Below are positions 6,695 to 55,589 of a DNA stretch of 64,000 bases, piece by piece. The notes beneath the pieces were generated by a model that searched no databases, had not been told where the DNA came from, and saw nothing but the letters and a program-made list of their open reading frames with translations. Both the position numbers and the translations under genes were made by a program. This stretch comes from Diabrotica undecimpunctata (lineage: Eukaryota; Arthropoda; Insecta; Coleoptera; Chrysomelidae), in contig NC_092807.1 of the NCBI RefSeq assembly GCF_040954645.1, forward strand, positions 28,947,054 to 29,011,053, written 5' to 3'. Each line of letters opens with the position of its first letter. Position 1 is the stretch's first letter.

Positions 6695-7060
6695 CAAGTA
6701 GCTGTAAGTTTTATATTAATATTTTTATTCATCTATTTAACATACCTTAGACGGTTTTAAAAACTCTTTTTCTCTTTTGTAATTTTTAAAAATTAAAAAA
6801 AATGTGAATTTTTTAAAACCCTTTTTAATGTAGGCCAGTCAGTTCTTATATAGTGTGTGATAAAAGAGGTCACTTTTGTTTACATACACATAACACTTTA
6901 TAACACTGAAATAATTCATTTATTTTTTACAATTATTCAAAGTAATTTTTCAATTAATCTTGAGCACGCCCATGGAGTGGTCGGAGCTACCAGTTAAAAT
7001 TATGCTAATTACTCTCTCGTTCATAAAAATAAACTATAAATATATCGTATAACAACGATA
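6695..7060. other. AT-rich trailer of transposase copy A
   Basis: No gene is seen. This is probably the 3' end of the transposon that carries copy A, but no matching inverted terminal repeat could be identified upstream, so the element boundary is unresolved. Confidence 0.4.
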
Positions 7061-8070
7061 AGTTAAGCGCTGAGATTGCAAAAACTGTTCGAATGTTTTA
7101 TATAATATTTTTGCCGATTGACCATTTACCTAAAAAATATAATTTTCACTAAGATATTAAATAATACCAGATTATTTAATTTTTAACTGTCAACAAAAAT
7201 GTAATATATGATGGAAAGCATGAATTTATTGATAATACAATCTAAATTATTTCTTGACTTTGACTATCAACAGCCCAGCCCGTCCAGATAATTTACTCTT
7301 AAACTTCATGCTATAATATTAAATAACACTAATTTAGATATATCTACTTTTTTATATCACAATTCATTCTTTCCATTTACTGTTTTTAATTTTAAGAGAG
7401 TTTTGAAAAGAACTTTTGCATAAAATGAGTAAAGATAAAATAATTTAAACAGAATACACAAATACAAAACGTAAAATCATAACAAAATCAAATTTAAATT
7501 ACGCGAGTAAATGTGGTGATTTTTAACGAGATACCCCTTTGACTGTTATTATTTTTAAAATAATGAGTTAAGCGCTGAGATTGCAAAAACTGTTCGAATG
7601 TTTTATATAATATTTTTGCCGATTGACCATTTACCTAAAAAATATAATTTTCACTAAGATATTAAATAATACCAGATTATTTAATTTTTAACTGTCAACA
7701 AAAATGTAATATATGATGGAAAGCATGAATTTATTGATAATACAATCTAAATTATTTCTTGACTTTGACTATCAACAGCCCAGCCCGTCCAGATAATTTA
7801 CTCTTAAACTTCATGCTATAATATTAAATAACACTAATTTAGATATATCTACTTTTTTATATCACAATTCATTCTTTCCATTTACTGTTTTTAATTTTAA
7901 GAGAGTTTTGAAAAGAACTTTTGCATAAAATGAGTAAAGATAAAATAATTTAAACAGAATACACAAATACAAAACGTAAAATCATAACAAAATCAAATTT
8001 AAATTACGCGAGTAAATGTGGTGATTTTTCACGAGATACCCCTTTGACTGTTATTATTTTTAAAATAATG
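7061..8070. repeat. 505-bp direct tandem duplication
   Basis: Bases 7061-7565 are repeated head to tail at 7566-8070. By eye only one base differs (A at 7525, C at 8030). The unit is AT-rich and non-coding. The near-identity points to a recent duplication or an assembly duplication. Confidence 0.93.
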
Positions 8071-8910
8071 AGGTAGTGTGCCGTCAACCATTAAGGTAAG
8101 AACTACACTATAGTTCTCTTTTACCGACTATTATTTTCATACCTTTGGTCTTGCGTATGTATATAGAGAATTTGTCCTCGAAAATCTACGTTTTAGAAAC
8201 CATGACAAATATTTGAGAATAAATTGAATGTGAGGTAGAACTCTATTTTATTAACGGTAAATATGCAGTATAATTAAATATATTGGTTTTCCGGGCTTTA
8301 CCTGGCGTTTCCCTTACAAAATATTTTGTATGGGTACACCGCATTAATCAAATTAAATATATTGGTAATACAAACTAGAAAACATTAAACAATATACTCC
8401 AAAATTAATTACCCTAATTCTGGGTAATTAATTTATTAACTGCATACAGTACACTAAATCAGTTGATGCAGTCACAAACAAGTTAATTTTTCAACTAGCT
8501 TTATTTTTATTTGCTTAACATATAAATATAGAAAAGTACCGCTTAGCCCTGATAAGATATTGCATAAATGTTAGAGTTTTTCCCGTTTGTACTCCATTAC
8601 ATTGTTTTTTTTTTGTACTTTTCGGTACTTGGACAATCAGAAAATAGTTGCCCCAGTAAACGAATTTTCAGATTTATTTGAAAATCGGTAATGAGAACTC
8701 ACCCTAGCTGGTATGAGATGATCCTATCGAATATTGTTTCATCTAGCTTTTTAAATATTCGATAACTAATTTCATATCCGAAGTGTCGAAGTAGTAGTTT
8801 AGATATTGCAATTATTCTATTGTGTTTTTGTTATAAATTCCATAAAGCCGTTTTAAAACGCGGTTATTGGATTATTGGAAATACTAAACGAAATATTTTG
8901 GACATTACTG
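8071..8910. other. Intergenic stretch with small repeat signatures
   Basis: No gene is recognised. A 15-bp direct repeat (8272-8286 and 8351-8365, aattaaatatattgg) flanks 64 bp, resembling a target-site duplication around a tiny insert. A 12-bp perfect inverted repeat with a 7-base loop sits at 8403-8433. Confidence 0.5.
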
Positions 8911-13319: not shown

Positions 13320-14519
13320 ATAATTAAAGAGACCTTCTTGGAGTTGGTAACCTTTTTGTTCAACAACACTTATTTCTCCTACGACAATAAGATATATAAA
13401 TCTACCTTTGGAACACCAATGGGTGCAAAAGTTTCACCAATCCTAGCTGCATATGTAGTCAATGACATCCTTGACACAGTTATTCCAGTGTTACCCTATA
13501 ACCTTACCTTTGTAAAGAAATATGTTGACGACATATCATTTTGGCACTTCCAAAAGATCAAGTTGAAGACATTTTATCAGTCTTCAACAGTTATAGTCCA
13601 TATATACAGTTCACAAAAGAAGTTGACAATAATGAACAATCTGCTTCTTTCCTCGACACTAAACTAATTAGAACTAATAACAACAATATCCTAGTGGACT
13701 GGTATAGAAAACCAACAGCATCAGGTAAATACCTACACTACCACTCATATCACAAACACTCAATGAAAATCAATCTATTAAAAGAAATGAAGGCAAGAGT
13801 GATGAAAATTTTAGATATAACTTTCCACGAAAAGAATCTCAAACTTTTGCACAACCTTTTTACAGTCAACTCTTACCCCACTGATTTACTTCTGAGTTAA
13901 GAAAATCCTTTATGACATCCCTTCATCCCTACCTCAGAGTATAGTAGATGAGTTAAACAACATCAATACAATAGTCCAGGGAGGAGTAGTTTGTGTCGAA
14001 CAAATTAACACCAACATCCGAGAAATAAGGAAAAATGTTAAACAGATTATAACCAATGAACCAATTACAGAATACACAATGATTTCTATGCCTTATATCA
14101 AAGAGCTCACACCCAGACTAGCAAGGGTACTTAATTCTTTATATAATTTAAAAATTGCCAATAAAACGGTACTTTCAATAAAAAGCCTTCACACAAAAGT
14201 AAAAGACAAAACACCTAAGGAGCAAATGTCACATGTAGTCTACAGCATTCCATGCAAAAACTGCAATAAAAAATACACACAGAAAGGCTTTTAAAAAATC
14301 GCATAATAAAATGAAGGACATCAGATGGACATTGATTCAGTAGAGGTTCTAAAAAGGGAAACCAGTTACATAAAACGTCTTTTCCTAGAAATGGCTTGTA
14401 TAGCACAAACAGAGAACAACATAAATAAAAAAACAGGCATCCACCACCTTAGTGAAATCTACTCCTTCCTTCTAACAGTTGACAAACACATGAAACACAA
14501 ACAGCATGAAATTCAATAA
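13320..14519 (+). pseudogene. Penelope-like RT and GIY-YIG endonuclease remnant
   Basis: The RT palm is clear: YDNKIYKSTFGTPMGAKVSP at about 13380, then YVDDI at about 13520 with the catalytic Asp pair. A frameshift near 13541 leads to EVDNNEQSASFLDTKL and WYRKPTASGKYLHYHS, typical of the PLE thumb region. A stop (TAA) closes this frame at about 13898. Further on, YIKELTPRLARVLNSLYNLKIA (13,900-14,300 in broken frames) and VVYSIPCKNCNKKY precede the position where the GIY-YIG motif should be, but the motif is lost and a frameshift/deletion follows (about 14283-14330). The C-terminal segment RETSYIKRLFLEMACIAQ ends at 14519. PLE proteins copy their RNA by target-primed reverse transcription. 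The N-terminal half of RT is absent, so this copy is 5'-truncated and dead. Confidence 0.85.
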
Positions 14520-15179
14520 TTTAATAGATTTCATTTTAGAATAAGATTATTACATTACCATATTATCACATAGTTTAACAATAGACTCTTAAGAAAAAAT
14601 GGTACAGCACACATTCAATTATAATAATTAATATTTCTTATCAAAAATTTTTTTTAAATACGACATCATTCTACACTACTCTTCAACCTTTACATAATAA
14701 CATAACTAGGTCTTGGAATTTACCAAGATCTAATTATCAAACTCTTGTTAAAGTGATCTTCAATCACTTTAACAATTTCAATTGTTTTTTAAATAGCTCC
14801 AACTTTAGCTACTAATCAAAGACAGGTATAGACATCCAGTGAAGACAAGGGCCACTAAAATCTCCACTCTACTTAGACCACCAAAGAGAGAAGAAGATTT
14901 TAGAGGTTAGTGTTTTCAAACCTGTAAATTAACCACATTGTCCACATTACATGACATAAAGTTCAGGTTATGAATTAAATAAAAAAGATGTAAAACTCTC
15001 TAGAGAGGACTTTGTGTCCGATACATAAAAGAAACACTTTTATGTGTTTTACAATACATGTTTTTTGTACGAAAACTTTTACAATTTTTTACAAAATTTT
15101 TTATAACTTTGACCAGCTTTCTTTACGGCGCTAATCTCAAATCGTAAGTAACATCAACTTTACATGTAAAACTATTTGT

Positions 15180-15240
15180 AGCTTATCCCTGATGATGTCG
15201 ATGAATATCGACGAAATATTGGAATAATAAAGGAATAAAG
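15180..15240 (+). ncRNA. Hammerhead ribozyme motif, PLE 1 terminus
   Basis: CTGATGA at 15189-15195 is followed by a 5-bp stem II (GTCGA with TCGAC) and then GAAA at 15213-15216. One extra T lies between the first core strand and stem II, as in the other PLE motifs here. Stem I can form between CTTATCC upstream and GGAATAAAG downstream with bulges. Stem III is weak (AT-only), so cleavage may be poor. Confidence 0.65.
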
Positions 15241-15286
15241 AGTACACTTAGCCTATACTTTCAGCTGTTTTCCCAAAGAGTCTCAA

Positions 15287-15290
<4 letters not shown>

Positions 15291-15330
<40 letters not shown>
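15291..15330. repeat. (TA)n tract at the 3' end of PLE 1
   Basis: About 40 bp of TA directly after the PLE terminus. All four PLE copies in this window abut such tracts. Confidence 0.95.
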
Positions 15331-15336
<6 letters not shown>

Positions 15337-17765: not shown

Positions 17766-18024
17766 AGACTGGGTGTAGCAAACTACAATAGGCAGTGAAC
17801 ACAATATGCTTTAGTTTCAGTGATAATGGAGATCTTTTTGATCAGACGGGCCCAGGAAGACAAAAAAATGTCTAAATAACTAACCGAGATTCTTTACTGG
17901 TTGATAATTCTATATGTCATGTACACAGAGATATTAAAATTACTTATATTATATTAAGATAAATTGTAGTTATAATTGCAGTTACAGACTGGAAGTTACG
18001 TACTGGTAAAAAAAAGAAACTCAC

Positions 18025-18530
18025 CTATAATCGTTAGATTTACGTGTGTAATTCTTGTAGAAGACTTCATGAAATCAACTTTACAATGAAATATTTGTTC
18101 GTCAATGAGCTTAGTCGGCGAAATGCTCATAACGGCCCTGTGATCATCGAGAATTCGTAAAAAGTACCTATTTTGCAGAGACGGTTCAGCCCAGCGCACT
18201 GGCTGATTACCACGAACGTCATATTTGTAAATTGGATTTTGCTCGGCACCTTTATACCACAACACTACACTTATTTTGTCCGGAGCCCCGACTGGGCTAA
18301 GATTGCACGGTAATGAGGCACTACCCCCATCTGAAGCTTCGATAAATTCGGTAGCCGGCTCAGCTTCGCAGGTTACTAGCAGAACTAGTACTAGAACTAT
18401 GAAACCGGACGTCGGCATTTTATGCTAACTACATGACAGACCACTGGAGATATCTTGAAAAAAACGCGAGCAGACTTGCTTCCGGAAGCTCTAACACGAA
18501 GTTATATGGTAGTTCAACTTCTCGAATTAT
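18025..18530 (-). CDS. Sidestep-like immunoglobulin-domain protein, first coding exon
   Basis: Minus-strand exon with an ATG at 18418 and a coding part of 394 nt, 131 codons plus one base. It ends at the donor G|GTGAGT (18024 downward). An acceptor CTTGTTTCAG at 18531-18540 starts the exon, leaving 112 nt of 5' UTR. Residues 1-20 form a signal peptide (hydrophobic VLVLVLLVTC). Residues 25-131 are a V-set Ig domain with Cys38 (SLPCNLSP), Trp54 (VVLWYKG), PIYKYDVRG and Cys112 (FHCKVDF). This arrangement resembles the first Ig domain of insect sidestep-family cell-surface proteins, which act in axon guidance and neuron recognition; that assignment is by resemblance only. Later exons (lower coordinates) are not visible in 1-18024, so the next intron must be long or the gene is fragmentary. 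The frame is intact and base composition is less AT-rich than around it. Confidence 0.82.
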
Positions 18531-21421: not shown

Positions 21422-23059
21422 AATCTGCATTACCGGCTGAGCATTAACCTTAACCAAGACCGGAACCATTTGTCAACTGTCAATTTATCTTCTTTTTCTT
21501 ATCTAATGTGAACTGTCAATTCTTCCTCGTTTTTCAACTCTAATTCTTCTTCTTTTTCTTAGCTAATGTTAGAACGAATCTACCGACCAATGGTAACAAT
21601 CCCCGCCCCAACAAACTCTTGTCCACCAACGCCACAAACGATCTGTTCGCTCCTTCTTATAAGCAGCCGTTAGCTGTCATTTTAAATGTCAAATATTCCT
21701 CTTTGCGTCGACTGTAATTTTTTTTTCTTTTCGTCTGTCATGTCAATTGTCGAATCTCCTTCTTTGCGTCGACTGTCATAGTCTTCCAACTATGAAACGA
21801 GGTAGGGCACTATGCACTATCTTTATCGATAAGACAGGGTATTTTTGTAGCTGGTTCGACTATCATTTCTTCAAGAATAGGTGAGTTTTATTTATTTTCA
21901 AACTCCTCTTCTGAGTATACATCCTCAATAGTTTCTGTAATACGGTCTTCAATCAAATTCCCATCATCATCTGCTTCTGCCTCTGAATCAGTTCAAACTT
22001 CCCCAGGAAGCCACAACAGCCATTCTCATTCCCTCTTTTTAAACGTATGCCCGAACATATAATATAAATCAGTATTGCAAACAAAAAAAAACAAAGTAAT
22101 TATTCTTTAAGGGACCGAACCGTATATTATATCAAAAATTTCTATTAATGATACACACAGTCCACTTGCTAAACTGTGACTAAATAAACACAGGCACGTT
22201 TGAAAGACACTATGAAGTGCATATTGAAATAAAAATTAGCTAGGTTTATATCGCGAAAATCAGTCTGTGCGAGAGACATAACTTAATCAGTTGAAGGTTA
22301 AAAGGACAATCACAAGCAATGATGACAGGAAAATTCTAGTGTTAATGATCTCGTTGGAAATAATAAGGAAAAACCAAAAAAGTCATGATACTTTCTCGAT
22401 ATAGTAAGTACTTGACCTTACATTTAGTTGACTCTCCTATTCTCTCTAAATCTATTTTGATTTAGACAATATTTGTATTGGGTTATCTACGGAAATTTAA
22501 CAAACGTAAAAACTGTATAATATAATTGTGTGAATAAAACTTAATCACGATTTTCGGTTATTTTTTATTTAAAATTATTTTAGAGCGAGTAAAATATACC
22601 AGTAAAATCTGTTTTTGATATGATTTAGGTAAATCAATTCTGGTGAAAAAAAAAATGGATGCAGTTCTACATATCTAATAATACTTATTGAAGGCCGTTT
22701 CACAAAGTGAGCCGACCCGTGTCAATTCCAGCCGGTGAAAAAATCCAGATAGAATTTCATTAATATTTCATGTTAACCGATCCCCTGTCTCTTCAGAAAC
22801 GTAGTTTTGTGGAATATCGGCACCAGAAACTAATCAAATATTTGCGAAATCTTCCAGATATAAATTGCTGAGGATTTGTACAGAAAAGTGGTATAGGGAA
22901 AACAAAATAAATAAAAAATAGCATCTATAATTTTTTATTTATGAATTTCTTCGGTTTCATATTATTTATCTTTTCATTTTTAATGTCTAGAGTGACTCCT
23001 CGAAAGTATATTCAAAAGATAATCTCTTAGTGTTATTCCTTAAAATTTGTAAGGATCAC
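21422..23059. other. Non-coding stretch with diffuse direct repeats
   Basis: Between 21470 and 21790 the phrases aactgtcaatt..tcttc, tcttctttttctta.ctaatgt and tctttgcgtcgactgt recur two or three times, suggesting an old minisatellite. The rest shows no gene or repeat family. Confidence 0.45.
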
Positions 23060-23239
23060 ATTATATACAGAGTGGAATGAAAAGTCTGGAAACGGCTAAT
23101 TATCTGTTAAGTGGATGGTCCGAGTGATGTAAAAACAGGGATCCGCCTATTTTGCAGTGTGAAGATTTAAAATTTCTTGTTCGTAGCGTTGCCAGATTTG
23201 CCAGTTTTCTGATATCATTGGTCAATTTGTTTTTTTAAC
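23060..23239. other. Possible transposon end
   Basis: The phrase tatacagagtggaatgaaaa has the look of a short insect transposon terminus (TA-x-CAGAGTG). No partner end was found, so this is a weak call. Confidence 0.25.
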
Positions 23240-23414
23240 GCCTTGACTGCGGCAGTTAAATACTTATTATACTAGTTCCTGCGTCACATGCCTCCGGAGA
23301 TACGTTATGATCGATTCTGTCTGTGCGTCACATGCCCCCTATGGCATGTGTGTACATGTAAGTACTTCATGCCCTCTTGTACGCAGAAGTATAAACTTTT
23401 GCATATATTACAAA

Positions 23415-23427
23415 CATAAAACTATTA
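23415..23427 (+). repeat. 13-bp direct repeat left of hammerhead block
   Basis: The sequence cataaaactatta recurs at 24844-24856 on the other side of the repeat block, as expected for a target-site duplication. Confidence 0.7.
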
Positions 23428-23463
23428 TATACGAAAATGGTTGCGTTTCGATTTAATTTGAGC

Positions 23464-23525
23464 TTCTTACCACTCCCTAACACGTGTTTCTGGGTCTACC
23501 CGTCATCAGAGAGAGTTTGTAAGAA
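23464..23525 (-). ncRNA. Hammerhead ribozyme motif, repeat unit 1
   Basis: Minus-strand copy of the 62-nt motif described at 24228-24289; CTGATGA reads in reverse at 23503-23509 and GAAA at 23487-23490. All paired segments of stems I and II are kept. Confidence 0.82.
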
Positions 23526-23910
23526 AACTCAAACTAAACCAAAACGCACCGACTACTCTGGCAATTATAGAAAAAAATAATTACCAGAGTATGCTACTAG
23601 AGACATCTAGAGATGAAAGATGAAGTTAAATGTGTCGATAGCAATTAAAGTAAATTGTATACTCATGCTTAATCAAGCCATTAAAAGCGATGCTGGGAAT
23701 ATTTATATTCCACTATGCATCAACAATTTACCCATATAAATTACCATCTTTCTTGTACTCATTGCGTCGAGTAAGAACGATAAATATACGAAAATGGTTG
23801 CGTTTCGATTTAATTTGAACTTCTTACCACTCCCTAACACGTGTTTCTGGGTCTACCCGTCATAGTGCATAGTGGAATATAAATATTCCCAGCATCGCTC
23901 TTAATGGCTT

Positions 23911-24068
23911 CTAACACCGCAACACCAGTGGACACATCAAAAATCCCAGTGCCACACCCATCACAAAGGAAACACGTCCTGAAGAGGCACAAGCCTAAAA
24001 CAGGACAGCTGATACACCCAATACACAAGATATACACACAACACACCAAAATCAACGCTACAATGAAT
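23911..24068. mobile_element. 158-bp insert with 11-bp flanking duplication inside a repeat unit
   Basis: One inverted unit is interrupted after cttaatggctt (23900-23910), which recurs at 24069-24079 where the unit resumes. The insert is visibly richer in G and C than its host and resembles spliced-transcript or LINE coding sequence (an open frame VPHPSQRKHVLKRHKP on the plus strand, Cys-rich on the minus strand). I do not recognise its source. Confidence 0.65.
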
Positions 24069-24227
24069 CTTAATGGCTTGATTAAGTGTGAGTATACAAT
24101 TTACTTTAATTGCTATCGACACATTTAACTTCATCTTTCATCACTAGATGTCTCTAGTAGCATACTCTGGTAATTATTTTTTCTATAATTGCCAGAGTAG
24201 TCGGTGCGTTTTGGTTTAGTTTGAGTT

Positions 24228-24289
24228 TTCTTACAAACTCTCTCTGATGACGGGTAGACCCAGAAACACGTGTTAGGGAGTGGTAAGAA
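24228..24289 (+). ncRNA. Hammerhead ribozyme motif, repeat unit 3
   Basis: CTGATGA at 24244-24250 and GAAA at 24263-24266 form the core. Stem I pairs 24237-24243 (ACTCTCT) with 24275-24281 (AGGGAGT), then after a small internal loop pairs 24228-24234 with 24283-24289 (seven more pairs). Stem II is GGGT with ACCC (24252-24255, 24258-24261). Stem III is A15.1-C with G-U16.1 around ACGT, and as ACACGTGT it is self-complementary. Predicted cleavage is between 24274 and 24275, after a GTT triplet. The first stem II position is a C-A mismatch. Confidence 0.85.
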
Positions 24290-24583
24290 GCTCAAATTAA
24301 ATCGAAACGCAACCATTTTCGTATATTTATCGTTCTTACTCGACGCAATGAGTACAAGAAAGATGGTAATTTATATGGGTAAATTGTTGATGCATAGTGG
24401 AATATAAATATTCCCAGCATCGCTCTTAATGGCTTGATTAAGCGTGAGTATACAATTTACTTTAATTGCTATCGACACATTTAACTTCATCTTTCATCAC
24501 TAGATGTCTCTAGTAGCATACTCTGGTAATTATTTTTTCTATAATTGCCAGAGTAGTCGGTGCGTTTTGGTTTAGTTTGAGTT

Positions 24584-24645
24584 TTCTTACAAACTCTCTC
24601 TGATGACGGGTAGACCCAGAAACACGTGTTAGGGAGTGGTAAGCA
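24584..24645 (+). ncRNA. Hammerhead ribozyme motif, repeat unit 4
   Basis: Exactly 356 bases downstream of the previous copy, with the core CTGATGA at 24600-24606. One outer stem I base differs (A to C near 24644); everything else in the motif is identical. Confidence 0.85.
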
Positions 24646-24843
24646 GCTCAAATTAAATCGAAACGCAACCATTTTCGTATATTTATCGTTCTTACTCGAC
24701 GCAATGAGTACAAGAAAGATGGTAATTTATATGGGTAAATTGTTGATGCATAGTGGAATATAAATATTCCCAGCATCGCTCTTAATGGCTTGATTAAGCG
24801 TGAGTATACAATTTACTTTAATTGCTATCGACACATTTAACTT

Positions 24844-24856
24844 CATAAAACTATTA
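24844..24856 (+). repeat. 13-bp direct repeat right of hammerhead block
   Basis: Second copy of cataaaactatta; see 23415-23427. Confidence 0.7.
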
Positions 24857-25339
24857 ATCTACTTTCCTCTCAAACAGGACATGCCGCCAACATCCGGTGT
24901 AACACAGACAGATAAACAAATTTTCTCTTGAAGAAAATTAAAGGTTTTTATAAAAACAAAATACTTTTACAACACAACAAACTCATATTAAAATCGATTG
25001 GTAATTTCTGCTTTTTCTTAATAATTATGTGCCTTATAAATAAGGCAAACAGTATCCAGGTTGACAAGGATAATCGAAACAAAAAGTTATTATCCTACGA
25101 ACTTTTTTATCCACTTCACGATAACTTAAACTTGTAGATTTTAATACTTAACGACAGCCTCTACATGGCTTTCGTCGTTTCCTTCTAGGTACTTAAGGTG
25201 TGGTAAAACTATGCACTCTTTTTTTGAAAGTGTTTTTTTTTTTCAGGTGATTATTAAAAAGTTTTGTTCTGAGTTTCATCTCAAATACTTCTTTCCTAAA
25301 AAAAATTAAAACAAAAGAGATATTAAAATTGTAACTTAT

Positions 25340-27990
25340 TTGTTTTTCTTACCGGTACCATTTCAAGCTTCGACGTAGCACTGTATGGTAAAATGACATC
25401 TGGTTAGAATAGTCTTCGCCTTTCTTTGCAGAGTTGTTATCAATTATACATTTTGGTTTCACAATATCCTCTTTTTGACTATTCTGCTTTTCTGTTGGAA
25501 TCAACTGTTTAGTATGGGCTGGGACATTTAAAATCATTAACACAGGTCTCTTATCCATCCACTTAATAATTTTTAGTCCATCTTTCTTTTTCCAATGACC
25601 TCTGTTGGCTTCATCTTCTTGGACTGGTTAAAAATAAGTGGTATTCCTTTTCTGTTTCCTCTTAGAGTCCCTCAGTACATCATATTTTTTGCAAACAATC
25701 TTTTAACGAGAGGTATTCCTGAATAAAAGGCTTTTTGCTGAAATTTGTAACCTTTGATCATTTTTTCCGAGTATCGAGGAGTTGGCCCGATGCCTCAACC
25801 CCCAACTTGGAGGACCAGGGTTTTAAATCAGAGTATCCTTCTCTTAGATAAGTTGCCTTCTCTATGGCTTAGGAGTCCTATCTAACCCACCTGTTGGTCC
25901 GCGGGTGGTATTTTATTTCCCACCTACCTGCCGGCCCAGCTGCAAACAGGCCGGTGAGGGCATTCCCCTATCCGCCACGTGGGGACGCGCTCTCTAGGGT
26001 TACAGGTTCCCCCGAGAGGGGGATAAAACTCTTTAAAATATAAGTCCAAGAAGAATTGAGGAATTGGAGAAATAAATGTAGATTTATGGGCATCGAAGTG
26101 GGACAAGAAACTCTGTATACATTGTTGTTTGCAGATGATGAGGTGGTGGTTGCAACCGATGAGGAAGATATAAATTATATGAATCGAAAATTATTTGAGG
26201 AATATGCCAAATGGGGGCTTACTGTAAACATAAGCAAAACAGAATATTTAAAAATTGGAGGAAATACCACAGATCTGAGGCTTAAAAACGCAGTCATAAA
26301 AGGCTGCAACCAGTATAAATATCTAGGAAGCATCATATCAGCAGATGGCAGAGTTAAGATAGATGTACAAAACCGAATAACCCAAGGGAAAAAATGCATC
26401 CGAATACTGAATTCATTACTGTGGTCTAATAAAATAAAGATGCATACCAAACTTCGCGTCTACAGAGCAATTGTAGAACCAATTACCACATATGGTGCCG
26501 AATGTTGGACGATGAGAAAGAATGGAATGAACGAGATAAAGTAGATGTTGTGGAAATGGATTATCTTAGAAGGTCATGTCGAGTATCGATAATGGAAAGA
26601 ATCAGGAATGAGGAAATACGAAACCGTACAGGAATTAGAGATACTCTTTCAGATAGAATACAAGGAAGGCAATTACAATGGTATGGTCATGTGATGAGAA
26701 TGGAGGAGGAGCGGTGGCCAAAGAAAGCCTTAATGTATGTTCCGCCAGAAAGAAGGAAAAGGGGAAGACCACCAAATTCCTGGAGAAGAGAAATTACAAA
26801 AACAACGCAATCTTAGGCTTAGAAGAGGGAGATTGGAGAGATAGGAAAAGATGGAGGCTGAAATGCGGGAAGCGGCAATCGCCGTAGGACCCCCGTTATA
26901 TGATGATGATGATTCCTGAATAAAAGTTATCAGCAAATAATATTTTGCCAGCTTTATCTGTGATACACTAAAGTCATTTTAGAACAACTGCTTCAGAGTG
27001 TGCTACATTAACTGGTTGTTGTTTATTTTTTCTTGTGTAGATACTTACATTGAAAGTATAGCCTTCAGGAGAACAGAGTTTGTATAGTTTTACTCCATAT
27101 TTATGAGTCTTGTTGGGGATGTACTGACGAAAATGGAGTTTCCTTCTAAAAGGTACCATAGATTTTTCTATAACGAGAATGTTGCCAGGCTCCATTATTT
27201 TTTAAAAATTATGAATCAACTTCGTAACTAAATTTCCTATTTTGCATAATCTATTAGTGGTATTAGATGTCTCATTATTTTCGAAATAAAGAAGTTTCAA
27301 TAAAATCAAAAAGCGGTCTCGACTTAAAACTTTTGCGATAAATTTATTATAAAATATATCATGTTTAGACTAATATAAATTTAAATGTGGTACATGAGTG
27401 AGACTCATTGTGATTATTACCCCTAGGAAGGCTCTTATGTCAGTTTTGTTTGTGGCTGTCCATAAATTTAACCTGAATTTTCTTGAGTATCGCATACTTA
27501 TTTGTTGAACAGCATAAATGTTGGTTTCATTAACAATAATATCCAATATTTCATCAGATACGAAATTACTAAAAACGTCTATTAGTTTTTTTACTGCATG
27601 TGATTCAATACCAACTAATGTATTCTTTCTAACTACAAAATCTTTACCATCTACATTTTCTTCTAAATCACACCATTCATCACTATCACTATTCTCAGCA
27701 CTCTGTTCATTATTAACTGATAGAACTTGCTCATATGGTGTAGTAATAATTTCGTCATCACTATCAATACAAGAATTTAAATCGAAGTATGAAGAAGATA
27801 TGAAGAAGATTCTAGCAATGAATCGCCACTGTCAAAGGAATCTTCGATATTGTCGGCAACAGATGAAGATTGAGTTGATCATTCTCCATATCGAGTTCAT
27901 CAGCCTGATTTGTTCCTTGTTCGTTTTCAATATTAAAATTTTCATAACTTTTAATCAACCCTGTATTATCATTATATCTGTAATTTGTTT
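25340..27990 (-). pseudogene. piggyBac-like transposase, degenerate and interrupted
   Basis: Minus-strand order. An acidic N-terminus lies at about 27850-27650 (ENSDSDEWCDLEENVDG). Then LVGIESHAVKKLIDVFSNFVSDEIL, IVNETNIYAVQQ and AFLGVIITMSLTHVPHLNLY run to about 27370. VIEKSMVPFRRKLHFRQYIPNKTHKYGVKLYKLC follows (27180-27060); Glu replaces the usual catalytic Asp and Lys the Glu after it. Next comes ADNFYS with the second catalytic Asp, exactly where a LINE is inserted. After the LINE the frame resumes as GIPLVKRLF, then NRKGIPL, DKRPVLMILNVPAHT, KPKCIIDNNSAKKGEDYSNQMSFYHTVLRRSLKWYR (25558-25349) with the third Asp region. Several stops and shifts make it inactive. It is only distantly related to the piggyBac at 50024-52344. 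Confidence 0.82.
25730..26912 (+). mobile_element. LINE with 15-bp target duplication inside piggyBac-like gene
   Basis: The insertion is bounded by attcctgaataaaag at 25715-25729 and 26913-26927. It begins with a GC-rich non-coding leader (about 25765-26035, with phrases such as cccccaacttggagg and ccgcgggtggta). This joins directly to an RT palm: YTLLFADDEVVVATDEEDINYMN (catalytic FADD, about 26115), then YKYLGSIISADGRVK, TTYGAECWT. A frameshift near 26515 leads into RRSCRVSIMERIRNEEIRNRTGI and WYGHVMRMEEERWPKKAL, RRKRGRPPNSWRREI. It ends in (GAT)n. Everything between the leader and the palm (endonuclease, RT fingers) is missing. This is an RTE-like group by eye. Confidence 0.85.
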
Positions 27991-30044: not shown

Positions 30045-30679
30045 GATAAAATAACCTTTTTATTGACAATTCGTACCCAAAACACCTAGTCACCAAGATA
30101 TTATTCAGTTTGACACCTAACATAGTACGCCAAAATGATGAGTTGCAAATTACTGTCACAAGCGAAGAACCGAATACCAATTGCTTATATACTTCTTTAA
30201 AATATATTAAAGACATAACACCCAGACTGGCAAGATTGTTCAAAGATTTTACCAACTTAAAAATAGCCTTTAAAACCTCAATTACTTCAAGATCTATATT
30301 TTCCAAAGTTAAAGATAAGAATGACATTAAGAATTGTTCCAACGTTGTCTACCAAATTCCATGTAACAATTGTAATTTAGTATATGTGGGACAAACCTCA
30401 CGCAGTTTAAGTAATCGCTTAATTAGTCACCGGAGTGATAGCAGATTATATCCTAAAAGATCTGCTTTAGCAGAACATGTTAACAAAAAACATCATAAAA
30501 TGAATTATGAATCGGTCAAAGTTTTAGCTATAGAGTCTAACTACACTAAAAGACTTTTCTTAGAAATCGCATTCATTTCTCAGAATTCCAATGAAATGAA
30601 CAAAAGAAGTTATATAAATCAATTAAGCACTATTTACTCCTACCTATTATATTTGGATAACCATTCTCTATTCCAATGA
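30045..30679 (+). pseudogene. PLE C-terminal region with intact GIY-YIG endonuclease
   Basis: The frame is open from about 30045 with no start codon needed, being the 3' part of a longer protein. YIKDITPRLARLFKDFTNLKIA is the linker after RT. VVYQIPCNNCNLVYVGQTSRSL holds the Cys pair and the VY..YVG form of the GIY-YIG motif, followed by the conserved Arg in SNRLISHRSD. SALAEHVNKKHH carries the His/Glu region, and NYTKRLFLEIAFISQ closes the domain. GIY-YIG nucleases nick the target to prime reverse transcription in PLEs. This domain looks undamaged even though the RT in front of it is gone. Confidence 0.85.
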
Positions 30680-31177
30680 TGTCTCATCAATTGATTCATT
30701 GTAATTTTTCAAATTTCATTCTTCTATCTTATATAAAATGAAAAAATAAAAAAAATTTAGTTTACAATTTTGGTTTTAAATAACTTTCTGGTAAATTTTG
30801 ATTTATATTCTATTAATAGTAATACTTCATAAGAATAAGAAAAAATAATAAAAGAAGAAGTTGTGTCATTTGCAATGTCCAAAATGACATTTTTTACCAC
30901 AATTCACAGTTGGCTGGCACACTTCTCCCTTAAAACAGTTTTTTAATTTTGTCTTTTTCTTACGTGTCAGTTTATATAATTTGTCAATTTAAATAAATTT
31001 TTTCCACGTTGAAATTTTTTAATTTTTAACTCATTTTATGAGTGGTGCGTAAAATTGTCACATGTTAGTGTAACATCCAAGAAATACTAATCTCAATAAC
31101 GTAAGTAAAAAAACAACTTTTACATCTTTTAATAAAAAAAAATTTTCGACGATGTTTTACTAACATTAGCACTTTAT

Positions 31178-31240
31178 TTCAGTTTTTTCCTGATGATGAA
31201 AATAAACATTTTCGAAAGCTTGAAACTCAGTTAAAAGAGT
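31178..31240 (+). ncRNA. Hammerhead-like motif, right end of PLE 2
   Basis: CTGATGA (31190-31196), a 5-bp stem II (GAAAA with TTTTC), then GAAA (31214-31217). Stem III can be AG with CT around seven bases, leaving C at the cleavage position. Stem I is partial. The downstream phrase agagtacactta is shared with PLE 1. Confidence 0.65.
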
Positions 31241-31285
31241 ACACTTATTTCACCGCTGCGTATCCCAATAATCCTCAAAGCTCAG

Positions 31286-31286
<1 letters not shown>

Positions 31287-31378
<92 letters not shown>
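31287..31378. repeat. (TA)n tract between PLE 2 and PLE 3
   Basis: About 90 bp of TA, uninterrupted. Confidence 0.95.
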
Positions 31379-31381
<3 letters not shown>

Positions 31382-31497
31382 CGAGAAAAGGAGTACGACC
31401 GTCAATCCAATATAAACTAAGGAACACTCGAAGAGTCGTGGGTTTTTCGGTCAAAGTGGAGAAATAACAGACAAAGAAGGTGGCTACTTCATCTATT

Positions 31498-31545
31498 TAT
31501 TGAAGACGTTTCGCTTCTTAATCAAGAAGCATCATCAGTTAATCT
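31498..31545 (-). ncRNA. Hammerhead motif, left arm of PLE 3
   Basis: On the minus strand CTGATGA (31532-31538), 7-bp stem II (GCTTCTT with AAGAAGC), then GAAACGTC (31505-31512), which holds the GTC cleavage triplet. Stem III would be AC with GT without a loop, so it needs two molecules pairing at ACGT. Confidence 0.75.
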
Positions 31546-32319
31546 AAAAAGAACAATATGAAAAAACAAACATTCATAGAAAAGTTATTATAGGTGGGTT
31601 ACCTTAAAAAGATATGTAGCAGTCAAAGATATAAAATGTGTAAAGAAGCTTATGATAATGGACATTAAATATTATGTTGTATAGACAATTAATTGAACTG
31701 AATACAGTTTACAAATTAACTCAACTTAGCACAGCAAGAGACATGTGGTAATGGTACATGTATATAAAAAATATGTGAAAAAACTTAAGTAAAAAAGATT
31801 AATTTACAGAGAACCAAACAGATCATATGATGCACTTCCAACAGTATATTATTATTTAAATTTGATTTTAACTTTCGGTTTATTACATAATTAAAAATTT
31901 GAATTATAGATATTTAAAAAAATTATATAATGAAGTTACCACTCTTAAGCTTCTCAATCGCTGTCGGTGAAATGCGACCAGAAATTTAGGTACCACGCCG
32001 AACGAGAAAAGACAGTGGCCATGAGGTCAAAATGTGACAGAACAGCAAGGCATTTTTTAGCAAGCAAGTTAATGTTGTGGCAGAATAGCCAACAACAGGT
32101 GAAGATTGATTTAACCTCCATCAGTCCAAGGTTCATACATTTGGAACTGAGAATAATATAGATTCTATGAATCTATTTTATTATACAACATAATATTTAA
32201 TGTCCATTATCATAAGCTTCTTTACACATTTTATATCTTTGACTGCTACATATCTTTTTAAGGTAACCCATTTATAATAACTTTTCCATGGATGTTTGTT
32301 TTTTTATATTGTTCTTTTT

Positions 32320-32370
32320 AGATGAACTGATGATGCTTCTTGATTAAGAAGCGAAATGTCTTCAATAAAT
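32320..32370 (+). ncRNA. Hammerhead motif, right arm of PLE 3
   Basis: CTGATGA (32327-32333), the same 7-bp stem II, GAAA (32353-32356) followed by TGTC. Stem I TGAA pairs with TTCA. The C-to-T change makes stem III weaker than in the left arm. Confidence 0.72.
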
Positions 32371-32439
32371 AGATGAAGTAGCCACCTTCTTTGTCTTTTA
32401 TTTCTCCACTTTGACCGAAAAACCCACCACTCTTCGAGT

Positions 32440-33554
<1,115 letters not shown>

Positions 33555-40954: not shown

Positions 40955-40956
<2 letters not shown>
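39422..40956 (-). CDS. RTE-like LINE reverse transcriptase, open frame, 5'-truncated
   Basis: The minus strand has an uninterrupted frame from about 40956 to 39511 (at least 467 codons), the best preserved LINE here. It starts within the linker (GPEDIPEISLDEIYKALKKMKNNKAPGEDGV), so the endonuclease is missing. RT motifs are in order: WNNSITVLLHKNGD, YRPISLLNHLYKLYTRII, EQAGFRPNYGTNDHL, LALIFVDFKKAFDTVE (first catalytic Asp), KRGVRQGDTMSPKLF, LRFADDIVLLSD (catalytic pair), YTYLGHEI, LIYGAETLTLT. The C-terminus has RWRWAGHVARIEDGRW-type and GRPRTRWTDDLRRI blocks. It lacks its own start, so it is a fragment despite the open frame. The 3' end has a TA tail; the 5' edge abuts another TA tract and then PLE 4. 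Confidence 0.88.

Positions 40957-40997
<41 letters not shown>
40957..40997. repeat. (TA)n tract, left border of PLE 4
   Basis: Short TA tract with two TACATA slips between the LINE and the inverted PLE. Confidence 0.9.
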
Positions 40998-40999
<2 letters not shown>

Positions 41000-41084
41000 T
41001 TGGAATATATTCAATGGTTGAATAGCAGAAGTTTTATCGGTCAATAATTGGCAAATAAAAGTCGTCAACTACTTTATTGATTTA

Positions 41085-41130
41085 TTTGAATACGTTTCGC
41101 TTTTATTTTTAAAAGCATCATCAGTTCACT
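41085..41130 (-). ncRNA. Hammerhead motif, left arm of PLE 4
   Basis: On the minus strand CTGATGA (41118-41124), 6-bp stem II (GCTTTT with AAAAGC), then GAAACGTA (41091-41098). Stem I TGAA pairs with TTCA. Stem III is AC with GT without a loop, so dimer pairing is required. Confidence 0.75.
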
Positions 41131-41595
41131 ACAAATAAAAAAGACTTTAAAATATAAGTAAACAAACCAACAGGGTTCATACTTACAAAAACAATTTGTA
41201 GGGTTTTTTTATAGATGTTATAAAAACTCTACGATAACTTAACATTAAAGATTACAAATTAAACGAGAGGCGAAACAAAAAAAAATACAAGTAAAACTTT
41301 AAGAACATTAGTTCATTTAATTTTAACTGATGGCTTCATTTGAACGTTGGTTTAAGCTCTTTCGAGGGTCAAACCACACTAATCTTTTCGATTGTTTTGG
41401 ATCAGCTCGTCATAATTTTCACATGTGGCTTGTTTTCGTCCATGTGTTTCTTTGGAATGCATGGTGTGGGTTACGATTTACGATTCTTAAGGGAATTATC
41501 AAGAGGAACAGGGACGGACCTTTTTTTTATAAAACGGGAAGAAATTTGGAAAGAAAAATGGGATTGAAGTTACTGTCTTGTAAGGGGTTTTTTTA

Positions 41596-41893
41596 TTTAT
41601 TTTGTATGATGAGGGAGTGATATATTTGACTCAAGTTGTCGATGTCGGTTCTCTTATTTAGGGAGGATGGATGTTTAAGAATTTGACACATTTCAAGGAT
41701 GGATCACTTATGATGATTTTGTTGTTTGCACAGTATTTTGGTATTCGTGAAGTCGATACTGTGTTTGGTTGAAATGGCATGCTGTGCAAGGGCACAAGAT
41801 GGTTTAGAAATCCTAATGTCGCTTTTGTGGGACGTTAGTCGACCTTGAAGGGAGCGGCTGGTCTGGCCAATGTAGCAGGAGTTGCACTCTGTA
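41596..41893 (-). pseudogene. PLE 4 GIY-YIG domain, left copy
   Basis: The minus-strand frame begins in the centre at CNSCYIGQTSRSLQGRLTSHKSD, which holds the second half of the GIY-YIG motif and its conserved Arg. ALAQHAISTKHSIDFTNTKIL, RSILEMCQILKHPSSLNKR and DIDNLSQIYHSL follow before a stop. This parallels the PLE 2 domain (SALAEHVNKKHH, RLFLEIAFI). It lacks everything N-terminal to the motif. The frame itself is open. Confidence 0.8.
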
Positions 41894-41894
41894 A

Positions 41895-42142
41895 CTAACG
41901 TCCCACAAAAGCGACATTAGGATTTCTAAACCATCTTGTGCCCTTGCACAGCATGCCATTTCAACCAAACACAGTATCGACTTCACGAATACCAAAATAC
42001 TGTGCAAACAACAAAATCGTCATAAGCGATCCATCCTTGAAATGTGTCAAATTCTTAAACATCCATCCTCCCTAAATAAGAGAACCGAGATCGACAACTT
42101 GAGTCAGATAATATATCACTCCCTCATCATACAAAATAAATA
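41895..42142 (+). pseudogene. PLE 4 GIY-YIG domain, right copy
   Basis: Inverted copy of the frame at 41596-41893, starting slightly later (LTSHKSDIRISKPSCALAQ), so the YIGQT motif is not included. A small change near 42108 disturbs the end of the frame relative to the left copy. Confidence 0.75.
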
Positions 42143-42614
42143 AAAAAACCCCTTACAAGACAGTAACTTCAATCCCATTTTTCTTTCCAAATTTCTTCCC
42201 GTTTTATAAAAAAAAGGTTCGTCCCTGTTCCTCTTGATAATTCCCTTAAGAATCGTAAATCGTAATCCACACCATGCATTCCAAAGAAACACATGGACGA
42301 AAACAAGCCACATGTGAAAATTATGACGAGCTGATCCAAAACAATCGAAAAGATTAGTGTGGTTTGACCTTCGAAAGAGCTTAAACCAACGTTCAAGCCA
42401 TCAATGAAGCCATCAGTTAAAATTAAATGAACTAATGTTCTTACAGTTTTACTTGTATTTTTTTTTCGTTTCGCCTCTCGTTTAGTTTGTAATCTTTAAT
42501 GTTAAGTTATCGTAGAGTTTTTATAACATCTATAAAAAAAACCCTACAAATTGTTTTTGTGAGTATGAACCCTGTTGGTTTGTTTACTTATATTTTAAAA
42601 TCTTTTTTATTTGT

Positions 42615-42662
42615 AGTGAACTGATGATGCTTTTAAAAATAAAAGCGAAACGTATTCAAGTA
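42615..42662 (+). ncRNA. Hammerhead motif, right arm of PLE 4
   Basis: CTGATGA (42621-42627), 6-bp stem II, GAAA (42647-42650) then CGTA. Identical in its core to the left-arm motif. Confidence 0.75.
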
Positions 42663-42768
42663 AATCAATAAAGTAGTTGACGATTTTTATTTGCCAATTA
42701 TTGACCGATAAAACCTCTGCTATTCAACCATTGAATATATTCCAAATTTAATCAACGGTCGTATTTTT

Positions 42769-42772
<4 letters not shown>

Positions 42773-42846
<74 letters not shown>
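42773..42846. repeat. (TA)n tract, right border of PLE 4
   Basis: About 74 bp of TA. Confidence 0.95.
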
Positions 42847-50211: not shown

Positions 50212-52170
50212 ATGGCGGGCAATTATAGAAAAACAATTGATTGTAAGTAGCTAATTTTATTAGATTATTAACCTAAATGTTGCATTTTTAAATTGTTTTT
50301 TATCTAAAACGGGGATGTCCTTTTTTATGGACGTCAGGTCCTTAGGGATACATAAAATATTATATTAGACTTTTTTGTTTCAGCTGTGTTTGGTGATAAA
50401 AAATATTTAAGACCCGAAGTTGACATTGAAAGACTTTTTGAATGCCTGGAAAATTCAGATATAGACGTTTCAGATTCTGAAAACTCTGATGACGGCTTTG
50501 ATCCAAATGAAGAATCGTATCAGCCTCAGCAATCAGATTCGGCCCAACATACAGATGATGAACAAGATACAGAAATGCCACCCGAAGATGAATTAGATAA
50601 CGTGCCACTCAGTGAACGAAAAAAAAAAGGAGAACCGAAATACATGGAAAAAATGGGTGTTTTTGTCCCTCAGCATATAGACTTTACTGGAATTGTCGAT
50701 ACAGTCTACGAGAGGCAAAATTGGAAAATTGAAAACTATGTCGGTATGTATTTTGATGATTCAGATTTTGAGAATATTTGTAATTGTACAAATATTAAAT
50801 TTTTGCTATAAAAAGGAAAACCTTTGAACGTTACTCTAACGGAGGTGAAAAAATTTTTTGGAATATCTTTTCTAATGTCCTGTCTGAATTATCCACAAAT
50901 TAGAATGTTTTGGGCTAAGACAACAAAAGTCAACAGCATTGCACAAGCCATGACTCGTGATAGATATTTTCAAATCAGGAGCAACTTAAAAGTAGTTACT
51001 GACGCTGATGTGCCTCAAGATCAAAGAAATGCTGACAAATTATTTAAGATCCGGCCTTTAGTTGACATAATACGAAGAGGTTGCTTGACACTTCCAAGAT
51101 ACAATGAGGTTGCTGTGGACGAACAAATGATACCTTTTACGGGCGTGTGTAACATGAAACAATTTGTTCTAGGTAAACCTAACCCAGAAGGATTAAAAAA
51201 TTTTGTCTGTGCCACTCCCAAAGGATTAATATTAGACTTCGATATTTATCAAGGGAAAAATACATTTCAGCAGAATGATGATGATGTTAAGAAGTTAGGT
51301 GTTGGTCCATCCGCAGTTATTAAGTTATCTACAACGTTATTAGAAGGAACACATGTGTTCATCGATAGATATTTCACCACCTTACCTTTACTTGAGTACA
51401 TGTTAAACAAAAATATTTTTTTAACTGGTACAATAATGAGATCCAGAATACCCAAAACAGTTCATGTAACATCGGATAAGGTGATGACTCGATTGGGTCG
51501 TGGTTCATCTGAGCAGGATGTAAGAGCTGATGGAAAAATTAACATAGTCCAATGGTATGATATGAAATCAGTTATTCTAGCGTCAACTGCATTGCAAATA
51601 GAACCTTCAGATGAATATAAGCGGTGGTCAAAAAAGGACTCCCGATATATTGAGTTACCTAGACCAAACATTGTTAAAAAGTATAATGAATGCATGGGGG
51701 GAATAGATTTAATTGACAGGATGATAAGTTATTATAGAATGGGAGCTAGAAGTAAAAAATGGACAGTCAAAACCATTTTTCACTTATTTGATCTTGCGAT
51801 TGCCAATTCTTGGATTCTATACAGAGATGACCATAAGCAACTTGGTGATGCTAATAAAACCGTTATGAAGTTCCTGGAATTTAAAATAGCTGTTTCCGAG
51901 TTGCTCCTTAAAGACAACATTTCTGAAAATTCTGATTTTGGGAACACTTCAACATTAGTAACTAGAAACAGTTCCAATCCTAGACCATCACTTCAAACTT
52001 CTACTAAAAGAAAGATACAACACATTCCTGCGATGGCATCCGAGTTAAAAAATTCTGTTAGATGCAAGCTTCCAGGTTGCAAGGGTAAAACAAAAGTTTA
52101 TTGTGAATCATGTGACATATTTTTATGTTTAACGGGAAATAACAATTGCTTTAAACAGTTTCATTTATAA
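50212..52170 (+). pseudogene. piggyBac transposase, two exons, one premature stop
   Basis: Exon 1 is 50212-50242 (MAGNYRKTID), then donor GTAAGT. The intron is 50243-50383, ending TTTGTTTCAG. Exon 2 is 50384-52170, sharing a Ser codon across the junction; 605 codons in all. The N-terminus is acidic (DSENSDDGFDPNEES). The DDE_Tnp_1_7 domain has Asp in YNEVAVDEQMIPFTG, in THVFIDRYFTTLPLLEY and in YNECMGGIDLIDRM. The C-terminus has the Cys-rich zinc-binding tail RCKLPGCKGKTKVYCESCDIFLCL. A TAA at 50809-50811 (codon 153) interrupts an otherwise open frame, after KFLL and before KGKPLNVTLTEVKKFFGI. The enzyme normally excises the element precisely. It is distinct from the decayed piggyBac-like gene at 25340-27990, which lacks the first Asp. 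Confidence 0.93.
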
Positions 52171-54489: not shown

Positions 54490-55589
54490 TTATTCCTCTT
54501 GCAATATCCCTCTTGCATTTCTTTGCCCAGTACAGTAGGTTTCCTACGAATTCTTTTACTATAGGCCATTTGGCTCACCTTCGACTCTCCATGTACCAGG
54601 TATTAGTTCTCCCGTGAGCACGTGCTCTGAATCAACAGTTTCTAGTGGACAGTAGGATAAAGTTAATTGACCGCTTCAAAGAAAATTTTGGGAATAGCAA
54701 CTTGCTAAAACTACCTTTTCTGACTTTGGAGGCTCAAGATACATTGGTTTTCTAAACACCCTGAATATAGCAGATACAATTCCAAATGTATTTTCTACTA
54801 TACATGTCTTGCTTTGCTGTATCTGTAATTGTAAATTCGAGCTGGTGACTCTTTCTGTTGGGTGCCTGGTAAGGGTGTTATCATATGCAGCTGCAAATCA
54901 AATCCCTCATCACCAAAAACAAAAAAGGGGAAGGTGATGTTCTTCCTGGTAAAACTTTCATTGATGGAAGATTTAAGAAAGAGGTTTCAAGTAATTGTTT
55001 AAACGTTGTATTAGCAAATACTCCGCTATCAGATGGTCTTATTATCATCAGATGCCAATACACCCTGAATATAGCAGATACAATTCCAAATGTATTTTCT
55101 ACTATACATGTCTTGCTTTGCTGTATCTGTAATTGTAAATTCGAGCTGGTGACTCTTTCTGTTGGGTGCCTGGTAAGGGTGTTATCATATGCAGCTGCAA
55201 ATCAAATCCCTCATCACCAAAAACAAAAAAGGGGAAGGTGATGTTCTTCCTGGTAAAACTTTCATTGATGGAAGATTTAAGAAAGAGGTTTCAAGTAATT
55301 GTTTAAACGTTGTATTAGCAAATACTCCGGTATCAGATGGTCTTATTATCATCAGATGGCAATGGCCTTCGCAACCTATATTTATAAATAAAAGGCAATA
55401 CTTAGCGTCCACTATAGCTAAAAGTACTATGCTGAAAAATTCCTTGTAGTTGAAATAGTCGCTTCTGATATTTACTGGAGGTTAAAAACATATATGTTTT
55501 CCATCGATATTGCCACAACAGTAAGGGTAATTCCACTTCAGGTCAAAATCATTTGCAATCTGTTGCCATTTGTCTTGATGTTTGGGCAC
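54490..55589 (-). pseudogene. PIF/Harbinger nuclease (DDE_4), duplicated and frameshifted
   Basis: Minus strand from an apparent acceptor (TTTCTTTAG at about 55590-55598): VPKHQDKWQQIANDFDLKWNYPYCCGNIDGKHICF holds the first catalytic Asp in NIDGKH. After a stop, PPVNIRSDYFNYKEFFSIVLLAIVDAKYCLLFINIGCEG follows, then SDTGVFANTTFKQLLETSFLNLPSMKVLPGR with the second Asp. In another frame comes FVFGDEGFDLQLHMITPLPG (third acidic residue) and IYNYRYSKARHV, ENTFGIVSAIFRVFRKPMYLEPP. These are the HARBI1-type blocks. A 304-bp stretch is repeated in tandem (54757-55060 and 55061-55364), so the middle of the domain occurs twice. Harbinger nucleases act with a separate Myb-like protein, which is not seen here. 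Confidence 0.85.
54757..55364. repeat. 304-bp tandem duplication within the Harbinger gene
   Basis: Bases 54757-55060 are repeated at 55061-55364 with two or three differences, for example tccgctatc against tccggtatc. It spans the second catalytic block to the FRVF block. Confidence 0.9.

Follow-up and report, generated by a model that had tools for sequence, protein, structure and literature searches.

Retrozymes with type I hammerhead ribozymes (HHRs) have been described in many invertebrates, insects being among those named, and Penelope-like elements (PLEs) are regarded as strong candidate helpers (Cervera and de la Pena 2020, PMC7229834; PMC8969392). Which enzyme moves animal retrozymes is an open question, and in PMC7229834 the candidacy of PLEs is based on shared features and co-existence. 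PLE insertions in rotifers have an inverted partial copy, most often placed head to head; target duplications measure 8, 9 or 10 bp where they are described, and some copies lack them. As the source of the inverted copies, the authors prefer self-priming on antisense RNA (PMC3846280). In vitro, the PLE protein of a lizard cleaves the two target strands and extends each of them; synthesis begins within the RNA, and ATT is the preferred target in AT-rich DNA. A single pair of closely spaced start sites serves both strands, and a cleavable HHR is dispensable for insertion (PMC11167929).

Here we describe a block of 356-nt units with a hammerhead motif within a 64-kb stretch of DNA (the window, meaning the whole stretch analysed). 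In our reading the block is one non-autonomous metazoan retrozyme insertion, probably made by two-strand target-primed reverse transcription and most likely with a PLE helper (rough probability 0.6).

Structure of the Locus

An earlier note on this DNA had described near-identical 356-bp units. The near identity was confirmed: Tandem Repeats Finder reports a period of 356 at 24068–24846 with 99% matches, and self-comparison within the block found pieces of 45–437 nt alike at 97.8–100% identity. The unit is indeed repeated, though not as a simple tandem: two arrays lie head to head in opposite orientation, the left one being inverted relative to the right one, which is itself split by foreign sequence. 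Neither the inversion nor the foreign sequence is mentioned in the earlier note. Unit sequence spans 23427–24846, between exact 13-bp direct repeats. The features are as follows, with unit position 1 being the first base after the predicted cleavage site.

23415–23427, left copy of the 13-bp target duplication, CATAAAACTATTA; its last A is common to the unit
23427–23863, minus strand, left array of 437 nt (1.23 units), running from unit position 329 through 356/1 twice to position 52
23864–23865, head-to-head junction, the bases AG, which belong to neither array
23866–23910, plus strand, beginning of the right array (45 nt, unit positions 117–161), with TCTTAATGGCTT as its 3′ end
23911–24067, foreign insert of 157 nt, splitting the right array
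24080–24846, plus strand, remainder of the right array, which stops at unit position 216
24844–24856, right copy of the 13-bp target duplication, CATAAAACTATTA; its first CAT is common to the unit

Together the two parts of the right array (23866–23910 and 24080–24846) come to 812 nt or 2.28 units, leading from unit position 117 across two boundaries to position 216. The outer ends of the block are thus at unit positions 52 and 216 and the inner ends at 329 and 117. As the outer ends differ in unit position, the block has no terminal inverted repeats. The predicted cleavage site is crossed without a scar in all four passages, two per array.

The copies differ very little. Private changes number two in the 812 nt of the right array and one in the left array, which has four further differences shared against all right copies and hence five in 437 nt overall. 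A comparison of these counts (5/437 vs. 2/812) gave p = 0.055, a weak hint that the arrays may have been copied from two different template molecules.

The insert at 23911–24067 is AC-rich, with two reading frames open throughout. It is flanked on both sides by TCTTAATGGCTT, forming a 12-bp duplication at 23899–23910 and 24068–24079, and a 157-nt piece between two such copies is most simply explained as a later insertion. The block is non-coding: the open reading frame listing has no ORF of at least 120 aa between stops in 22800–25500. No tRNA genes were found in the same interval. Comparison of the unit with the rest of the window gave only matches of 12–23 nt (best E 0.037). Two further near-perfect direct repeats are present at 54756–55363 (304-bp units, 99.3%) and 7058–8075 (513 nt, 99.4%).

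The 13-bp repeat reported by the earlier note on both sides of the block was found again, at 23415–23427 and 24844–24856. The block edges had to be moved, as unit sequence reaches from 23427 to 24846 and its edge bases overlap the duplication. Because these bases (CAT on the right, A on the left) are common to unit and duplication, the duplication proper is 9–13 bp. When intervals of the window were drawn at random (200,000 draws), a repeat of at least 13 bp bordered the interval on either side at a frequency of 0.0002, a value that is raised by the TA tracts of the window. The left target edge reads CTATTA. We also considered two insertions side by side and rejected this, since there is a single outer duplication, which argues for one event, and the inner junction shows no direct repeat.

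The Hammerhead Motif

Four copies of the motif, three of them complete, could be located.

23473–23515, minus strand, complete type I hammerhead of the left array, core start at 23509
23837–23866, minus strand, truncated hammerhead, innermost in the left array, without the first core bases and with three mismatches to the 30-nt core
24238–24280, plus strand, complete type I hammerhead, predicted cleavage after 24274 (between GUU and A)
24594–24636, plus strand, complete type I hammerhead, predicted cleavage after 24630

A hammerhead in every complete unit, as had been claimed before, was borne out. The 30-nt core is exact at 24244 and 24600 on the plus strand and at 23509 on the minus strand (mean 0.00 in 100 shuffles). 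A descriptor consisting of the core, stems I–III and the cleavage triplet, composed after the motif was seen, has three matches in the window, exactly the three complete copies. In 600 shuffled windows it matched 0.018, 0.005 and 0.0017 times per window when stem I had to reach 5, 6 and 7 bp, respectively, the last value representing one match in the 600 shuffles.

The covariance-model check proposed in the earlier note gave a hammerhead in short scans only. When 86 nt were scanned under relaxed filters, the Rfam model RF00163 (type I HHR) aligned to each of the three complete copies, scoring 24.1 bits (E 2.9e-4 per scan), below its gathering score of 34. At the gathering threshold Rfam gave no matches in the whole 64-kb window, and with E up to 10 it gave 12 matches on 1.9 kb, no hammerhead among them. 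A 24-nt stretch of the hammerhead core had no exact match in viral, bacterial or archaeal contigs, which has no bearing on host dispersal.

The core elements follow in the order CUGAUGA, C, GGG-UAGA-CCC, A, GAAA, CACGUGUU and then the 3′ strand of stem I. In stem I an internal loop stands between seven pairs (ACUCUCU/AGGGAGU, one of them G-U) and a long outer helix. Stem III consists of just two pairs and a loop ACGU, and lies within the palindrome ACACGUGU, so a longer stem III is possible in a dimer. In stem II a C.A replaces the first pair, adjoining the core.

Folding of the isolated motif and of the circle predicted a competing structure that is better by 1.9 kcal/mol, leaving the HHR at about 0.11–0.24 of the ensemble, with pairing of 0.11–0.23 for stem I and 0.22–0.24 for stem II. 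In the linear unit the corresponding values are 0.63–0.98 and about 0.78. The C.A at stem II, the short stem III, the low Rfam score and the better competing fold all count against HHR activity. The unit (35.7% GC) has a folding z of −9.69 relative to 100 shuffles, and this strong fold together with the stem pairing in the linear unit makes the predicted fold compatible with the putative ribozyme.

Penelope-Like Remnants and Other Features of the Window

Two inverted pairs with a minimal PLE-type HHR motif are found near the block, and their layout is like that of the two arrays.

31288–31683 (minus strand, left) and 32182–32554 (plus strand, right), inverted pair, 90.7%
40955–41839 (minus strand, left) and 41894–42811 (plus strand, right), inverted pair, 94.9%

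The motif reads CTGATGATG...GAAA in both pairs, and TA tracts lie outside each. The overall spans are 31287–32554 and 40955–42846. In each pair one arm outreaches the other on the outside: the right arm of the first by ~24 nt, the left arm of the second by ~46 nt. ACGGTCGTA is present in both extensions, which resemble the optional 30–40 bp tail of published PLEs. The left arm of the pair at 40955–42811 has a piece of a GIY-YIG domain, a weak match (E 0.0039) that falls short of Pfam's cut-off, and the right arm has no Pfam match at 0.05. A clear GIY-YIG domain (E 7e-7) is found in an ORF at 30050–30679; the region of this ORF extends over 30050–31381, with CTGATGATG...GAAA following at 31190 and then a TA tract. 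A further stretch at 15237–15336 is similar to 31234–31332.

Scanned in the same way as the HHRs of the unit, none of three PLE-type motifs (15165–15250, 32300–32385 and 42600–42685) was matched by RF00163. Two ORFs picked by eye as PLE pieces (13529–13900 and 13896–14294) matched no Pfam family at 0.001 and were dropped. The PLE copies are remnants and no intact PLE helper was seen in the window; an active helper, if any, would be located elsewhere.

The window also has a piggyBac-type transposase ORF at 50812–52170 (PF13843, E 1e-56). Among the best 120 of its 275 matches, the best named relatives come from the seed beetles Acanthoscelides obtectus (60%) and Callosobruchus maculatus (58%), with other proteins, up to 77%, ranking above them. 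The host is probably an insect; a beetle is a guess based on this one transposase ORF, as mobile elements are poor indicators of their host. An immunoglobulin V-set domain (PF07686, E 3.8e-8) at 17996–18424 on the minus strand may belong to an exon of a host gene.

Proposed Origin of the Block

Assignment to the retrozyme-like class, proposed in the earlier note, is supported at the sequence level by the unit length, the type I HHR, the 36% GC, the self-paired fold, the target duplication and the seamless passage of the cleavage site. The accompanying proposal of reverse transcription from such a circle falls short in its simple form, in which one circle gives one tandem, as the two arrays of the locus are oppositely oriented and do not share a start point.

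By analogy with published retrozymes, the type I HHR would cut multimeric transcripts into 356-nt units that are ligated into circles. A helper with endonuclease and reverse transcriptase, most likely a PLE, might then cut both target strands and leave 3′ overhangs. With both 3′ ends acting as primers, reverse transcription would begin at two separate places within the RNA, unit positions 52 and 216. Each cDNA would cross the unit boundary twice, the inner cDNA ends would be joined head to head, and repair would create the 13-bp duplication. If sense RNA is copied from the two broken 3′ ends, the antisense array should come to lie on the left and the sense array on the right, as is the case here. 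The seamless passages imply that the template was either a multimer that had escaped cleavage or a closed circle, which leave the same trace, and are thus compatible with a circular template.

Two opposite arrays with different internal starts and one target duplication are the expected trace of two-strand target-primed copying. Whether the double array was in particular left by a PLE protein that primed on retrozyme circles from the two strands of a single break is, in our estimate, an even bet. If so, a natural locus would hold structural evidence that connects metazoan retrozymes with the PLE machinery, a connection so far proposed from co-occurrence and shared features.

The lizard PLE protein counts in favour of a PLE helper in that it cuts and extends the two strands, begins within the RNA and prefers ATT, a triplet present in the left target edge CTATTA. 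Also in favour are the inverted, mostly head-to-head copies of rotifer PLEs and the minus-left, plus-right pairs of the window, one of them with the weak GIY-YIG match, besides the separate ORF with a clear one. Against it, in the lizard system the cleavage of the HHR is dispensable and the two strands use the same nearby starts, whereas the starts of the block are 164 nt apart (PMC11167929). The low HHR score, the competing fold, the PLE copies of the window being mere remnants, and the different explanation given by the rotifer authors also weigh against this reading.

The retrozyme might instead have been moved by a LINE, through ordinary target-primed reverse transcription with twin priming inverting one part; we consider this unlikely. 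Twin priming yields an inverted part between target duplications, as seen here. Several LINE-type reverse transcriptase ORFs are present in the window (RVT_1 in the three ORFs tested), and the right edge shows a 3-nt microhomology, CAT. However, neither edge has a poly(A) or simple-repeat tail, and the head-to-head layout is regular in PLEs (PMC3846280) and in the PLE-type pairs of the window.

Rather improbable is an event at the DNA level, in which a hammerhead satellite array left its place as a DNA circle, or was flipped during break repair, without reverse transcription. Hammerhead satellite DNAs are known in insects (PMC2837043), but the exact 13-bp duplication at both edges, the ends of the arrays at unrelated unit positions and the lack of any array at the locus outside the block are hard to reconcile with such an origin.

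Snap-back self-priming, where the cDNA folds back and copies itself as a second arm, fits the inverted layout and has been proposed for rotifer PLEs (PMC3846280); we give it very little credence. The inner ends (329 and 117) are not adjacent in the unit, so that neither arm arose by snap-back from its partner, and the right array exceeds the left in length and has another end point. A terminal-inverted-repeat DNA transposon or MITE with a chance hammerhead-like motif would account for the long inverted arms and the target duplication, but it is highly improbable, given outer ends (52 and 216) that are not inverted copies of each other, so that the block is not such a transposon, and a descriptor result far beyond chance.

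Two-strand target-primed copying with a PLE helper is our preferred reading, and the question of the helper can be tested by comparing the array orientation and start sites of retrozymes with those of PLEs across one genome.

Comparison With Known Systems

The block shares with PLEs, as described in PMC3846280 and PMC11167929, a direct partial tandem plus an inverted partial copy that is mostly head to head, a short target duplication, an HHR motif and an internal start of reverse transcription. It differs from them in having no protein-coding region, while PLEs are defined by an ORF with reverse transcriptase and GIY-YIG endonuclease, and in its HHR, a fuller type I form matched by Rfam, where the PLE motif is minimal.

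The pDo500 satellite DNA of cave crickets is likewise an insect repeat with a hammerhead, but is described as satellite DNA (PMC2837043), and the comparison is by description rather than by sequence.

Retrozymes as such are already known. The block differs from the published metazoan ones in having two opposite arrays in one insertion; the word "inverted" does not occur in the main text of PMC7229834. No description of inverted head-to-head retrozyme arrays was found in the retrozyme literature searched, which includes passages on inversion in PMC7229834, PMC7761336, PMC11722881, PMC4918200, PMC8490949 and PMC6431247 and has most subscription papers outside its scope. In other respects the block resembles the metazoan non-LTR retrozymes described in PMC7229834: the tandem unit of 356 nt falls within their 150–450 bp, the HHR is of type I, the GC content is below 50%, the unit RNA is self-paired, the target duplication is longer than 4 bp, and PLEs are present in the same genome.
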